A stretch of 56,399 nucleotides of DNA from Clostridiales bacterium (GTDB lineage: Bacteria; Bacillota; Clostridia; Peptostreptococcales; T1SED10-28): the NCBI GenBank assembly GCA_007120165.1, contig SKOH01000030.1, forward strand, positions 1 to 56,399. The letters run 5' to 3'. The notes beneath the pieces were generated by a model. It was not told the origin of the DNA and made no database searches. It saw nothing but the letters and a program-made list of their open reading frames with translations. The position numbers and the translations under genes are program-made. Positions 5,390 to 48,669 of the stretch are shown here, piece by piece. Position 1 is the stretch's first letter; each line of letters opens with the position of its first letter.

Positions 5390-5454
5390 CGTCTTAAGAC
5401 GTAGACTAAAACCTTCCTGGGACGGTTAATGCAAAGCCTTTTATGGGATAAAAT
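5390..5454 (+). promoter_or_regulatory. Phased-operator promoter A (upstream of lipoprotein gene)
   Basis: Operators CGTCTTAAGACG (5390-5401) and CTTCCTGGGACG (5413-5424), centres 23 bp apart; -10 taaaat 5449-5454, centre 33 bp from proximal operator centre. Confidence 0.75.
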
Positions 5455-5490: not shown

Positions 5491-5898
5491 ATGAGAGCAA
5501 ACGTTAAAAGGAACGGCAAAGGGCTGATGGGATTGGGGATTCTTATTATGGTGCTGTTGGCAGCGGGTTGCAGTAACGCCAATCTTAAAGTAGGCTATAT
5601 TTCCTCGGGGATCGGCAATACTTTTACCGCTTCCTATTATTATTTCGACGGCATGGAAAGCCGGAAAATTGATGGGGAACCGGGGGAAATTATCACCGTT
5701 GCCTATGATTCTGAAGTGAAAAGGGGGAATCTTCAGATGAAAATTCAAAGTCCCACTGGGGAAGTTTACCATCTATCTACAGATGCTGAATCCGAAAAGT
5801 TAATGGAAATTCCTGTAGACAAGACCGGTACTTACCGCTTGATTATCACAGGGGAGCGTACCCGGGGATCCTTCAGTGTGGCTTGGTCGTCGATATAG
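5491..5898 (+). CDS. Small secreted lipoprotein
   Basis: Signal peptide with lipobox LLAAGCSN; ggaagggggaggg RBS. Confidence 0.75.
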   Translation: MRANVKRNGKGLMGLGILIMVLLAAGCSNANLKVGYISSGIGNTFTASYYYFDGMESRKIDGEPGEIITVAYDSEVKRGNLQMKIQSPTGEVYHLSTDAESEKLMEIPVDKTGTYRLIITGERTRGSFSVAWSSI

Positions 5899-15732: not shown

Positions 15733-15797
15733 CGCCTTCAGACGGAGAACGGTACAGTCTTGAGACACTGGGGAGACCCATTAAACTTCGGTATTAT
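15733..15797 (+). promoter_or_regulatory. Phased-operator promoter D (upstream of nucleotidyltransferase)
   Basis: Operators CGCCTTCAGACG (15733-15744) and AGTCTTGAGACA (15756-15767), centres 23 bp apart; -10 tattat 15792-15797, centre 33 bp away. Confidence 0.7.
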
Positions 15798-15872: not shown

Positions 15873-16916
15873 ATGGACTTAATGAAAAGTGCGGAAATAT
15901 TGATCGAAAAAATTGAAAAGGATTACAAAGAGGATGTCGCCGTGGTGGTGGTTATGGGCTCCTACCTATACAACGACCTCCACAGTCGGTCAGACCTGGA
16001 TATGTATTATGTTCCGACCACCGAGCGGGGGGAGAATCTGGGTAAGGTGTTTATTATTGACGGCATCGGATTTGACTTTTGGCCGATATCCTGGGAACGA
16101 CTGGAGCGGATAGCCAATCACGAAGAACGGACCACCTCCATCGTTACGGAAGGGAAGGTTCTTTACTACGGTTCGAAAAAGGACCTGGAAAGATTCAACC
16201 AGTTGCGGGAGAGAGGTCTGGATACCGGGAATCGAAAAAACTTCATCGAAAAATCCAGGAAACAGTTTCAAAAAACCTATGAAGCATATTTCAAACTTTT
16301 ACAGGAGCAGAGGCTTTCCGATGCCAGAAAACATGGGATGGAAATCATTTTTTCTCTAACCTATGCCACCGCCCTGTTAAATGGCACCACAATCAAGCGG
16401 GGCAGAGGAAAACTGAAAAAAGAAATCCTTAATATGGACCTGGTCCCGAAGGATTTTTCGTCTTTATATGATACGGTTTTTATCAGCCGGGATGTTGAAG
16501 CCATAAAGAAAAGTTACGGCGAGCTGATAGGAAATATGAAGAGTCTGCTGGAAGAAGAGGAACGTAAAGAACAGAAGGAACGGTCTTTTCAAGAGCAGAT
16601 GGATGGATACTATGAAGAACTGATTAATTTCTATAATAAAATTCATCGAGCCTGTGAAATCGGAGATATTTATACCGCGCTGTTTGCAGCGGTGGAGATT
16701 AACCAGGAAATAGAAGCAGCCTTTTCGGGAACCGGAGTATCTCCAAAGACTTTGCCGGATATCATTGGAGCTTTCGATCCCGATAATCTAAAAGATTTTT
16801 TAAACATTGTAGAGGATCATCAGGCCCAATTGTTTGTTTTACTAAAAGAAAAAAATGTTCCCATCCGAGTATTTGATGATTTTTTAGCACTGCAGGAGTA
16901 TATCGATTCGTTGTAA
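15873..16916 (+). CDS. Nucleotidyltransferase-domain protein
   Basis: VVVMGSYLYNDLHSRSDLDMYYV fits GS-x(n)-SDxD polymerase-beta-like NTase motif. Confidence 0.75.
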   Translation: MDLMKSAEILIEKIEKDYKEDVAVVVVMGSYLYNDLHSRSDLDMYYVPTTERGENLGKVFIIDGIGFDFWPISWERLERIANHEERTTSIVTEGKVLYYGSKKDLERFNQLRERGLDTGNRKNFIEKSRKQFQKTYEAYFKLLQEQRLSDARKHGMEIIFSLTYATALLNGTTIKRGRGKLKKEILNMDLVPKDFSSLYDTVFISRDVEAIKKSYGELIGNMKSLLEEEERKEQKERSFQEQMDGYYEELINFYNKIHRACEIGDIYTALFAAVEINQEIEAAFSGTGVSPKTLPDIIGAFDPDNLKDFLNIVEDHQAQLFVLLKEKNVPIRVFDDFLALQEYIDSL

Positions 16917-17922: not shown

Positions 17923-18621
17923 TCAGGAGGCTTTCTTTTGAACCCGGGTTTCCCCTACAATGATTCCATCACTTAACTCCAGGATTTTTGTGCCGTAGGC
18001 GGCGGTTTCCTTAGAGTGGGTTACCTGGATAATGGTGGTGTTCAGGTCCTGATGAATGGTTTTAAACAGTTCCATAATCTCTACCGTGGTTTTGGAGTCC
18101 AGATTTCCCGTGGGCTCGTCCAACAGCAGGATCTTCGGCTCGAAAATTAACGCTCTAGCAATGGCCACCCGCTGCTGCTGTCCTCCGGAAAGCTCCCGGG
18201 GGGTGTGTTTTCGGTAGTCGATCAGTCCTGTAATTTCCAATAACTCTTCCAATCGCGCTTTTTCTTTTTTACCATTCTTTCCGTCCAGAACCAAGGGAAG
18301 CATGATGTTATCCTCTACCGTCAGGTTCGGCACCAGATTATAGAACTGGAACACAAATCCGATGTCCCGTCTTCGAAGCAGGCTTTTATCTTTTTCTTTC
18401 ATTGTAGTAAGATCTTTTCCATGAAGGTTGATCTGTCCGAACGTAACCTCATCCAACCCTCCTAACAGATATAATAAGGTGGACTTACCACAGCCCGAAG
18501 GTCCCATTACCGACAGAAACTCTCCTGAGGCTACTTCGAAATTTAAACCTTTCAGTACTTCCACCGTCTGTTTTCCCATGGAAAAGTTTTTCTTTAAGGA
18601 TTTTACTTCAATTGCATTCAT
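17923..18621 (-). CDS. ABC transporter ATP-binding protein (MacB/LolD-type)
   Basis: GPSGCGKSTLLYLLGGLD, LSGGQQQRVAIARAL, LLLDEPTGNLD. Confidence 0.95.
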   Translation of the reverse strand: MNAIEVKSLKKNFSMGKQTVEVLKGLNFEVASGEFLSVMGPSGCGKSTLLYLLGGLDEVTFGQINLHGKDLTTMKEKDKSLLRRRDIGFVFQFYNLVPNLTVEDNIMLPLVLDGKNGKKEKARLEELLEITGLIDYRKHTPRELSGGQQQRVAIARALIFEPKILLLDEPTGNLDSKTTVEIMELFKTIHQDLNTTIIQVTHSKETAAYGTKILELSDGIIVGETRVQKKAS

Positions 18622-18702
18622 AGGGCATTCTCCTTTTTTATGGTTTTAATTAATGTTTCGATTATCAATTTTTAATATCGCCTGTTATTATACTTTGATA
18701 TA

Positions 18703-21183
18703 TTATTCGTACTGAATCTCCCGGATTACCGAAAGTTTTCGACTTTTCATAACCACCGGCAGGGTCGCCAGTAAGAACAGCAGGAAAGCGGCTACGAAAA
18801 ATGGCACCATTCCGAAGATGTTAAATTCAATCGGTATCGGAAGACCGATCATCGTGGTGAGGGCCGTAATCAGACGGGCCATCAGGTATCCGTAAGGCGT
18901 GATAAAGAGGATCGCCCAAAGGACGGTTACACCGGATTCGATAAAGATCATCCGACTCCGCTGGCTTCTGGTCATACCGAGGGAGCTTAGGATGGCTAAA
19001 TCTTTTTTCCGCTGAATAAAGCTGATGATGATATTATTTAAGGCTCCAAAGGCGCCGATGACCACTGCCATGATGGAAAATATACTGAGGATGTTCATCA
19101 TCTGCCGGTTGCCCTCCAGGTTACGTTCCATAGAAGCTTCCAGGCTGATTACCTGAGCACCGTAGCCCCGGGTGATCTCTCGTATTTCTTCTGCGAAGGC
19201 GTCGTTTGCTTCCTCGGCGTGAAAGTAAAGGCTGTCGGTATAGGCGTAGTGGAAAGAGTCTCTGAGCTGCTGATTATCAATCATTATGAAAGAACCATTG
19301 TAATACAGTCTTCCGTCCACCACTCCGGCCACTTCATAGTCTTTGGTTCTCCCGTCCACTTCAAAGGGAAGGATGTCACCTTCTTCAATTCCATTTATAC
19401 TGGCAGTATTTTTCGATACGATAATCATACTTTCAGGGTTTTCCAGGAAACGGTCATAAATGATTTTATTATCACCTTCGTGAAAGCCGAGGTAAGGGTT
19501 AAAGTCCGGGTATTTTAACGGATCGATCCCCATCACCATACTGTTGGTGGTATCCAGCTTTCCGTAGCCCAGCATCACTTCATGGATTGATTCCTCCTGA
19601 ATTTTTGGATGCTCGGCCAGGCTTTCCTTCAGGCTTTCGATAGACTCGGGATCCTGCATACGGATCTGTTCCACGGCATAATCAAAATCCATATCGGAAA
19701 ATGCGTCCACCACGGTGGACTGAAGACTGCTGCTGACGGAATTGATTGCCACCATGGCTAAGATCGACATAATCAGCAGCGTAATATTACCCCGGAGGGA
19801 TTTGCTGCTTTCCACATTATGCAGACCTAAGGCCGAGGTACTGCTAAAACTTTTCATCCCCCGAAACAGCTTAGGGGTACAAAAGGACAGAACCCGAGGA
19901 TAAATCAGTATCAGACTGATTACTGAACCCAACAGCATTAAGGGACTGAAGCTCACCACATAGGGCAGTTCCATGAAAACCGACAGGGTAATAAAGAGTA
20001 GGAGCAGGGTCCCAAGGATGAAGCCTTTATAACCTTTTTTTCCGTTCCGTTCATCGATACTTAATATTACGTTCTTCACTTGCATTCTACCGGCCTTAAC
20101 AATCGGCAGGGTACAGGAGAGCAGCGAAAGCAGTAAAGAGAAAACCATCCCTGCAGCAATCAACGAAGTTTCAAATTCAAAACTTCCAGTAATACCATAA
20201 TCCCGTAGGGGAGCAAGAAAGTAATGAATGAAATACAAAATCCCTATTCCAAGTCCTGAGCCGATCACTCCGCCAAGAATCCCATAAAGGCCGCTTTCAA
20301 GATAAAGAATGCGACGTACGTCTCCTTTGGTGGCTCCTTGGGAAAAGAAGGTACCGATGATCGGAAGACGCTCGGTGATAAGTAATTTAAAGGATCCGTA
20401 AATAATGAAACTGCTCATTAACACGACAATTAGCAGCATGCCGTAAAAAATCGAGGTGATCTGGGCGATCTGCGCTTCCGCTCCTTCCATATCCAATATT
20501 TCCTGGGCGTGAAAGGCTTCGTTATTTTCATTGAAGACGGCAATTCCTGACTCTACTGAATCCATGGAGGAGGCTGCACTCACCCGATTGACCAGGTTGC
20601 CCATACCAAAGATTTCTTGCGCGGTATTTAGCGGGACAACCAAGGAAAACTGTTCTTTCGTATCGGTGTAAAATATCCCGTCCACATCAATAATTCCGGC
20701 GACTTCAAAGGTCTCCCTATTTCCCATTAACAACACTTCCACTGAGTCCCCTAATTGAAGTCCCAGTTCCTCTTTGGTCCGATAAGAGATCAGCGCTTCC
20801 TTTTCACTGATGCCGGCGCTCTTATCTCCCTCAATCCAGTTTTTCGATTGCGTCCAATCCTGATCCATTCCATAAAAATTAATGGTTTCAAGATTATCGG
20901 TCTGATTGATCCCTTGAGAGACCACATAAGCGTTCAGCTCTGAGAGACCCTCGGTGTTCATTTCAGAGCGGTCAATCAATCCGTTTTCTTCCGACTCGAT
21001 TCGAATTTCCATTCCTTCAAAACTTGCGGTAATGGGCTTTAAAAAGCTGTCGAGACCGGTTTCCACCGCACCGATGCTGCCAATGAAAAGCGCCGTACTC
21101 ATGGCAATGGCAAAAACCAATAAAAACAGCCGCGCTTTTCGTTCCAACATGGATTTTGCAATGAATTTCATAAATATTTTCAT
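18703..21183 (-). CDS. FtsX-type ABC transporter permease
   Basis: 826 aa; N-terminal TM plus MacB-like periplasmic domain, two FtsX TM modules (ILSSLGMTRSQRSRMIFIES). Confidence 0.9.
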   Translation of the reverse strand: MKIFMKFIAKSMLERKARLFLLVFAIAMSTALFIGSIGAVETGLDSFLKPITASFEGMEIRIESEENGLIDRSEMNTEGLSELNAYVVSQGINQTDNLETINFYGMDQDWTQSKNWIEGDKSAGISEKEALISYRTKEELGLQLGDSVEVLLMGNRETFEVAGIIDVDGIFYTDTKEQFSLVVPLNTAQEIFGMGNLVNRVSAASSMDSVESGIAVFNENNEAFHAQEILDMEGAEAQIAQITSIFYGMLLIVVLMSSFIIYGSFKLLITERLPIIGTFFSQGATKGDVRRILYLESGLYGILGGVIGSGLGIGILYFIHYFLAPLRDYGITGSFEFETSLIAAGMVFSLLLSLLSCTLPIVKAGRMQVKNVILSIDERNGKKGYKGFILGTLLLLFITLSVFMELPYVVSFSPLMLLGSVISLILIYPRVLSFCTPKLFRGMKSFSSTSALGLHNVESSKSLRGNITLLIMSILAMVAINSVSSSLQSTVVDAFSDMDFDYAVEQIRMQDPESIESLKESLAEHPKIQEESIHEVMLGYGKLDTTNSMVMGIDPLKYPDFNPYLGFHEGDNKIIYDRFLENPESMIIVSKNTASINGIEEGDILPFEVDGRTKDYEVAGVVDGRLYYNGSFIMIDNQQLRDSFHYAYTDSLYFHAEEANDAFAEEIREITRGYGAQVISLEASMERNLEGNRQMMNILSIFSIMAVVIGAFGALNNIIISFIQRKKDLAILSSLGMTRSQRSRMIFIESGVTVLWAILFITPYGYLMARLITALTTMIGLPIPIEFNIFGMVPFFVAAFLLFLLATLPVVMKSRKLSVIREIQYE

Positions 21184-21227: not shown

Positions 21228-21315
21228 AGTATAGGGGAAGTTCTAAGTTTTCATAACCGTCTGGGGACGCTTTGTTAATCCACCTAAAGGTGTTTATCCT
21301 CTCAGTCTTCAGACG
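21228..21315 (-). promoter_or_regulatory. Phased-operator promoter B (upstream of FtsX/ABC operon)
   Basis: On minus strand: CGTCTGAAGACT, CACCTTTAGGTG, CGTCCCCAGACG; centres 21309.5, 21286.5, 21263.5 (23-bp steps); -10 TATACT at 21228-21233, 33 bp from proximal centre. Confidence 0.8.
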
Positions 21316-46267: not shown

Positions 46268-46300
46268 GCGGCGTCCCAGGACGCCGTAATTTTTTTGAAT
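46268..46300 (+). terminator. Rho-independent terminator after cls
   Basis: cggcgtcc-ca-ggacgccg followed by taattttttt. Confidence 0.75.
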
Positions 46301-48262: not shown

Positions 48263-48544
48263 TTATCCGATAAAGTTGCCATAGTGAAATTGCTCCTTAG
48301 CTTTTTGGATATCTTTTTCCACTTCTTTATGAAGTAAAATTTGAGCAATTTTGTCCTGGGCTTTATTGAAGATGAATGTAAGTTTGTTGGCGTTGGTCTC
48401 ATCAACGGTTACAACAAAGGTTTCATTTTGTACCTGTAAGGTTTTTTCCATATGTTCTCCCTCCTTTACCTGATCGATTTTTGCTGCGATGGTGTCCAGT
48501 CCGTTCATTTCTAAAATGTTTTCCAATGTGACCGCTCCTTTCAA
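48263..48544 (-). CDS. Small protein of unknown function
   Basis: 93-aa ORF; aaaggagcgg RBS suggests start TTG at 48526. Confidence 0.6.
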   Translation of the reverse strand: MKGAVTLENILEMNGLDTIAAKIDQVKEGEHMEKTLQVQNETFVVTVDETNANKLTFIFNKAQDKIAQILLHKEVEKDIQKAKEQFHYGNFIG

Positions 48545-48581: not shown

Positions 48582-48669
48582 ATTATAGAACGGATGGAAA
48601 AACTAAATAACCGTCCCGAGACGCTTTTTGAATCCTCCTCAAGGGAGTTTGTATCTCGGTCTTAAGAAG
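48582..48669 (-). promoter_or_regulatory. Phased-operator promoter C (upstream of small-protein gene)
   Basis: On minus strand: CTTCTTAAGACC, TCCCTTGAGGAG, CGTCTCGGGACG; centres 48663.5, 48640.5, 48617.5 (23-bp steps); -10 TATAAT at 48582-48587, 33 bp from proximal centre. Confidence 0.8.

Follow-up and report, generated by a model that had tools for sequence, protein, structure and literature searches.

Phased palindromic operators in an uncultured Clostridia genome as putative LiaR/VraR-type sites of a cell-envelope-stress regulon

Introduction

A 56,399-nucleotide stretch of DNA from a Clostridiales bacterium, referred to below as the window, carries four promoters at which short palindromes recur at a fixed spacing upstream of the -10 element. 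This raises the question of whether the palindromes are operators of a common regulon and, if so, which regulator recognizes them. A sequence-only reading of the window had proposed an undescribed regulon with activator-dependent promoters and an envelope or antibiotic stress character, the regulator of which was held to be unidentifiable in the window. The close relatives of the organism are Clostridiales/Clostridiaceae MAGs from sediments, with soda lakes suggested by the isolate codes, and we know of no cultured strain of the lineage.

Operator arrays in the window

Each of the four window promoters has 12-bp near-palindromes with the core CY..RG, two apiece at 5.4 and 15.7 kb and three apiece at 21.2 and 48.6 kb. 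Read from the sequence, the centre-to-centre step is 23 bp throughout and the proximal operator centre lies 33 bp from the centre of the -10 in all four arrays, confirming the positions and distances originally proposed for them.

At 5.4 kb, on the plus strand, the distal LiaR-type operator CGTCTTAAGACG (5390..5401, centre 5395.5) is followed by the proximal operator CTTCCTGGGACG (5413..5424, centre 5418.5), which is placed by its sequence and by the phasing test. A weak -35-like TTAATG (5426..5431), which holds the TTA of GACGGTTA, stands 17 bp before the -10 TAAAAT (5449..5454, centre 5451.5), and the gene downstream (5491..5898, plus strand) encodes a 135-aa lipoprotein with the lipobox LAAGC. 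The 15.7-kb array, also on the plus strand, consists of a distal operator CGCCTTCAGACG (15733..15744, centre 15738.5), which is kept upstream of the orthologue in the relatives G001 and G003, together with a proximal operator AGTCTTGAGACA (15756..15767, centre 15761.5) and a -10 TATTAT (15792..15797, centre 15794.5), both of which are likewise supported by conservation. It precedes the gene for a 347-aa protein (15873..16916, plus strand), the translation of which contains a nucleotidyltransferase-like GS...SDLD motif and gives a weak, sub-threshold NCBIfam match to the MntA-family adenylyltransferases.

The two triple arrays are on the minus strand. At 21.2 kb, the distal operator CGTCTGAAGACT (21304..21315, centre 21309.5), the middle operator CACCTTTAGGTG (21281..21292, centre 21286.5) and the proximal operator CGTCCCCAGACG (21258..21269, centre 21263.5) lead to a weak -35-like TTATGA (21251..21256) and, after a 17-bp spacer, to the -10 TATACT (21228..21233, centre 21230.5); conservation supports the middle and proximal operators and the -10. 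The downstream gene (18703..21183, minus strand) encodes an 826-aa FtsX/MacB-type ABC permease, with Pfam FtsX and MacB_PCD domains, and shares an operon with the gene for a 232-aa LolD/MacB-type ABC ATPase (17923..18621, minus strand). At 48.6 kb, the distal operator CTTCTTAAGACC (48658..48669, centre 48663.5), the middle operator TCCCTTGAGGAG (48635..48646, centre 48640.5), the proximal operator CGTCTCGGGACG (48612..48623, centre 48617.5) and the -10 TATAAT (48582..48587, centre 48584.5) stand before the gene for a 93-aa small protein (48263..48544, minus strand) that belongs to a multi-copy, genus-level family with no assigned function. Here the -10 is conserved, and the middle and proximal operators are kept within the small-protein family. 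In both triple arrays, the middle operators CACCTTTAGGTG and TCCCTTGAGGAG are weaker than the flanking ones.

As the sequence-only reading had noticed, GACGGTTA is found exactly 20 bp upstream of the -10 in three of the four arrays, those at 5.4, 21.2 and 48.6 kb, and a TT at the -35-like place is kept over 11 array families. Since liaF promoters from the same bacterial family, which are described below, read TTGG where three of the window arrays have GGTTA, the latter is best read as a weak or degenerate -35 (TTA/TTG, 17-bp spacer) that is abutted or overlapped by the proximal operator. Class II activator promoters usually have such a degenerate -35 overlapped by the proximal activator site. 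The promoters, which combine a good -10 with no more than a TTA/TTG vestige of a -35, have the activator-dependent form that had been predicted.

A further palindrome at 46272-46283 (CGTCCCAGGACG) was considered as an operator and rejected; it forms the stem in an intrinsic terminator (GGCGTCCCAGGACGCC), where a run of T follows CGTAA.

A genome-wide test of the geometry

The sequence used amounts to 1.41 Mb of the 2.41-Mb genome. A PWM built from the 10 window operators only, combined with a generic -10 matrix, was scanned over the 1.36 Mb outside the window for operator steps of 15-31 and -10 distances of 25-41, giving 289 cells. The cell (23,33) had the highest count of all, with 25 matches compared with a mean of 8.2 (sd 4.0). 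At scores >20 it contained 6 matches, representing 5 distinct arrays (on contigs C154, C40, C192, C24 and C43) with the C154 array counted on both strands, against a background in cells with other steps of 0.11 on average (sd 0.32, max 2). Coverage is biased toward strong arrays, their contigs having been chosen after whole-genome pattern searches had flagged them; the excess at (23,33) nevertheless stands, because, even with the background scaled up to all 2.41 Mb, the expectation at this score is only ~0.19. Arrays at random positions and orientations, which would have told against a regulon, were not seen in the genome scan.

Mismatch-tolerant pattern searches, allowing up to 3 mismatches, gave no excess over reversed-pattern controls, and the signal resides in strong, correctly phased matches. 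Lone strong operators in the same genome show no clear peak at 33 with respect to the -10; therefore, the signal requires two operators. One palindrome, at C59:10181, is solitary and has no partner operator. Alignment of 32 arrays puts the operators 33 and 56 bp away from the centre of the -10 and reveals A-rich columns just 5' of the proximal operator, at -41 to -38 counted from the -10 start.

The liaFSR operon

The best array outside the window, with a 23-bp step and a -10 at 33, precedes an operon on C154 which encodes LiaF, a HisKA_3 kinase and a NarL-type response regulator. The genes, assigned by profile matches, are in the order F-S-R (L071 7918-5005, minus strand). LiaF matches NF040535 with 67.7 bits (cut-off 57) and PF09922 with 85.5 bits (cut-off 29). 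LiaS has a HisKA_3 domain, and its best NCBIfam match is to Strep_LiaS with 188 bits (cut-off 450), a model that describes a streptococcal equivalog and sets no family-wide requirement. Among solved structures, those nearest to LiaR are 5hev (E=2.7e-68), which was deposited as VraR and which we take to be LiaR of E. faecium, and S. aureus VraR (7ve6/4gvp, E ~4e-64). DevR comes next at 6e-36, and LiaR is far closer to 5hev and S. aureus VraR than to either DevR or NarL. The DNA-binding (recognition) helix of LiaR, KTVKTHVSNILSKLE, is the helix of VraR.

By homology, the regulator of the arrays can be named with good confidence as LiaR. We put at about 0.88 the probability that the arrays are tandem putative binding sites of the C154 LiaR, a NarL/LuxR-type regulator belonging to the LiaF-LiaS-LiaR envelope-stress system. 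The genome also encodes three other full NarL-type regulators, one on C121 and two on C9, and short palindromes are common among the sites of NarL-family regulators, so that the arrays might instead be operators of one of these proteins, with liaFSR merely among its targets. This appears unlikely: the recognition helices of the three (SEKTVKNHVSNIFKKI, AEKTVRNYLTKIMEKL and AEKTVRNYSSKLFRKI) differ from that of LiaR/VraR, neither C9 nor C121 has a (23,33) array above threshold, the array operator fits the published LiaR/VraR consensus, and the arrays co-occur with liaFSR across the order.

Conservation and co-occurrence in relatives

The array upstream of liaF is kept in this genome (G000) and in all five of its family relatives (G001-G005), while the stretches that separate the operators and the -10 vary in sequence. 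In G007, G062, G011 and G022, which belong to two other families and have LiaF proteins that are 34-45% identical, the liaF promoters have a pair of operators with a step of 23 and the -10 at 33, and those of G118 and G085 have a step of 24. The distant liaF promoters combine a near-perfect distal operator (AGTCTTAAGACG) with a weak proximal one (AAACTAAAGCCT). Arrays are also present before the orthologues, in those relatives where they were found, of the FtsX permease, the ABC exporter, the PAP2 phosphatase, the nucleotidyltransferase-like protein and the 93-aa protein, in most cases with (23,33) as the best geometry. The array before the nucleotidyltransferase-like gene in G001 and G003 surfaced in a blind pattern search and not by way of the gene. 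The proposal of a genuine regulon defined by promoter-fixed, phased palindromes is upheld.

The presence or absence of liaFSR was set separately from the search for the array pattern over 148 genomes of the order. Two operators and a -10 were found in 9 of the 12 genomes with liaFSR versus 3 of the 136 without (Fisher p=6e-10). The three latter cases look like chance, because a reversed control pattern also gives 9 matches over the 148 genomes, although none in genomes of this family. Across the phylum, 23-24/32-34 is the best geometry at 10 of 19 lia loci with an adjoining LiaS-like kinase gene, several of which come from the same family and are not fully independent, compared with 1 of 10 LiaF-type loci without a kinase gene and 3.4% of shuffles.

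The arrays are not all independent of one another, because those at 48.6 kb and on C59 are paralogous, as are the genes behind them, and the 21.2-kb array shares spacer letters with the small-protein arrays. This would be expected if they were dispersed REP-like repeats, or duplicated copies of one promoter, with no common regulator. However, every array points to a -10 at the one fixed distance of 33, in keeping with the earlier observation that the operators lie on the coding strand, whereas REP-type elements are independent of position and orientation. The liaF, ABC-exporter, PAP2 and nucleotidyltransferase-like arrays retain operators and phasing within unrelated spacers, and orthologous promoters have kept their operators while their spacers diverged, footprints which already contradict the REP or duplication explanation and make it very improbable. 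That the arrays are a chance alignment of short degenerate palindromes chosen by eye, as the lack of excess in the 3-mismatch searches might suggest, can be dismissed given the out-of-window PWM test, the footprint over six genomes, the co-occurrence across the order and the few matches of the reversed control.

Two side observations come from the relatives. A second LiaF-like gene in G005 (L110, G005:C39) and G003 (L111, G003:C106) has operator pairs 23 bp apart upstream, which suggests a further lia-type locus that is controlled in the same way. G005 also has an array, with TTTAGT as the -10-like element, in front of a gene resembling those for ECF-type sigma factors (L323, G005:C72), which hints at a sigma-factor cascade fed by LiaR in this genome.

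Members of the putative regulon

Arrays are found upstream of the liaFSR operon (C154), the FtsX/MacB-type exporter (window 17923-21183, minus strand), a pair of half-size ABC exporters (C40), a PAP2-superfamily phosphatase (C192), the lipoprotein (window 5491, plus strand), the nucleotidyltransferase-like protein (window 15873, plus strand), and both the 93-aa small protein (window 48263) and its paralogue on C59. An HflX-type GTPase (C24) and a methyltransferase with a MATE exporter (C132) are weaker candidates, which counts somewhat against the scheme. The PAP2 superfamily includes undecaprenyl-pyrophosphate phosphatases such as BcrC. The target set would fit an envelope and antimicrobial stress response, in line with the stress character first proposed from the window.

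Genomes of the genus hold several copies each of the 93-aa family (in G001, 12 stretches match), and a three-operator array precedes almost every copy. Searches of Pfam and NCBIfam gave no match for the family, and the AlphaFold model of the protein has a mean pLDDT of 45.5, making the fold unusable.

Two further sites were noted in the genome. On C43 (L076 655-760, minus strand), convergent genes end on either side of a three-site array with a -10 at 33, which faces a bidirectional terminator ~60 nt further on; the array may be a relic or may give rise to a very short RNA. On C177 (L075 1-60), two operators 23 bp apart run off the contig end, so that a further member of the regulon is cut off by the assembly.

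Comparison with known LiaR, VraR and CesR sites

The pneumococcal VraR consensus, TMMRYCTRARGWYKGA, is located 31-34 nt before the start site (PMC11034029), and the distance from site to start is 32-34 nt at three pneumococcal and six lactococcal promoters (PMC6560143). The LiaFSR/VraR system of S. pneumoniae and CesSR of L. lactis thus resemble the arrays in having, regulon-wide, a palindrome with a CT..AG core at the start-site distance of the proximal operator. The consensus is matched here at up to 16/16 positions: the 16-mer TCCGTCTGAAGACTGA at the 21.2-kb distal operator is a perfect match, and the minus-strand 16-mer TACGTCTTAAGACGGA at the 5.4-kb distal operator has 1 mismatch. As an independent probe of the 1.41 Mb, TMMRYCTRARGWYKGA with <=1 mismatch has 18 occurrences, of which 5 are distal operators of arrays compared with 0.013 expected by area. 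Of the 19 places that match the CesR box with <=2 mismatches, 3 are inside arrays; the flank bases are unlike those of the classical CesR box, with CGTC in place of the CesR half-site TCAG, which counts against the assignment. A single site is described in S. pneumoniae and L. lactis, whereas the arrays have one or two extra operators upstream (PMC11034029, PMC6560143, PMC4447274).

With starts inferred from the -10, the proximal operator would be centred at ~-42 and the distal one at ~-65. In B. subtilis, which has the same LiaF-LiaS-LiaR set, the primary LiaR site at PliaI (-76 to -52) equals the distal operator position (PMC7191749), but its secondary site lies upstream (-89 to -76) and not at ~-42, and the gene set is different. 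At PvraSR of S. aureus, two tandem sites precede the regulator's own operon, R1 from -75 to -50 and R2 from -46 to -26, the second being less conserved and occupied only by phosphorylated VraR (PMC6612188), a homologous regulator with a near-identical DNA-binding helix. The better conservation of the distal site is shared with the distant liaF promoters. Unlike the palindromes described here, which keep an exact 23-bp step at many promoters, some of them three-site, the R1 and R2 footprints define no lattice.

An operator before the regulator's own operon, as at liaFSR here, is common to the B. subtilis and S. aureus types. Autoregulation by LiaR is not universal in the family, however, because LiaR of S. 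mutans does not bind the lia promoter itself; this protein requires an A-rich stretch beside the inverted repeat (PMC4447274), and a similar stretch is found here just before the proximal palindrome. From comparison with the literature only, DesR and other NarL-type activators are also similar in using adjacent palindromes for cooperative activation (the DesR motif is cited in PMC11034029), although DesR has another recognition sequence and another sensor system.

A model for activation

We infer the following for the inducing signal, phosphorylation dependence, binding, filling order and activation. Envelope damage would cause LiaF to let go of LiaS, which would then phosphorylate LiaR. Dimers of LiaR would fill the better-conserved distal palindrome at ~-65 and then, cooperatively, the proximal one at ~-42, with a third site at ~-88 at some promoters. 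From the proximal position, a LiaR dimer would contact RNA polymerase at a promoter with a good -10 and only the TTA/TTG remnant of a -35. In this way, LiaFSR would activate itself along with the ABC exporters, the PAP2 phosphatase, the lipoprotein, the nucleotidyltransferase-like protein and the amplified small-protein family. A step of 23 bp corresponds to 2.2 helical turns and leaves neighbouring dimers rotated by roughly 70 degrees, not on one face of the DNA; because of this rotation, the exactness of the step points more to contact between dimers than to face alignment.

Discussion

Most likely, the arrays mark a LiaR/VraR-type cell-envelope-stress regulon of uncultured Clostridia that keeps strictly to the 23-bp step and uses two or three operators per promoter. 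The regulator, once thought unidentifiable, can be named because an array precedes liaFSR on C154 and because the operator, its place with respect to the start of transcription and the DNA-binding helix match those of the LiaR/VraR/CesR family. The reading as an undescribed regulon is not supported: its layout and target set are new, but the kind of system is known. The literature searched, which covered few subscription journals, yielded no account of a LiaR regulon from Clostridia of this kind.

A wider reading, which we offer tentatively and at somewhat less than even odds, is that a two-rung LiaR ladder, with operators at ~-65 and ~-42 that are 23-24 bp apart, is an ancestral promoter code in the phylum. 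The single sites of B. subtilis (distal) and of streptococci and lactococci (proximal), as well as R1/R2 of S. aureus, would be partial remains of this code, and some lineages would have added a third rung to give a cooperative, regulon-wide switch that includes the amplified small-protein family. Three seemingly different LiaR/VraR promoter layouts may thereby be reconciled.

A probable regulator has thus been named for a regulon that sequence reading alone had brought to light in uncultured Clostridia, probably of soda lakes. The promoter code of operator, 23 bp, operator, 33 bp and -10 is scannable, and could be used to list LiaR targets in genomes without experiments. It also points to an expanded small-protein family as a main output of the envelope-stress system.
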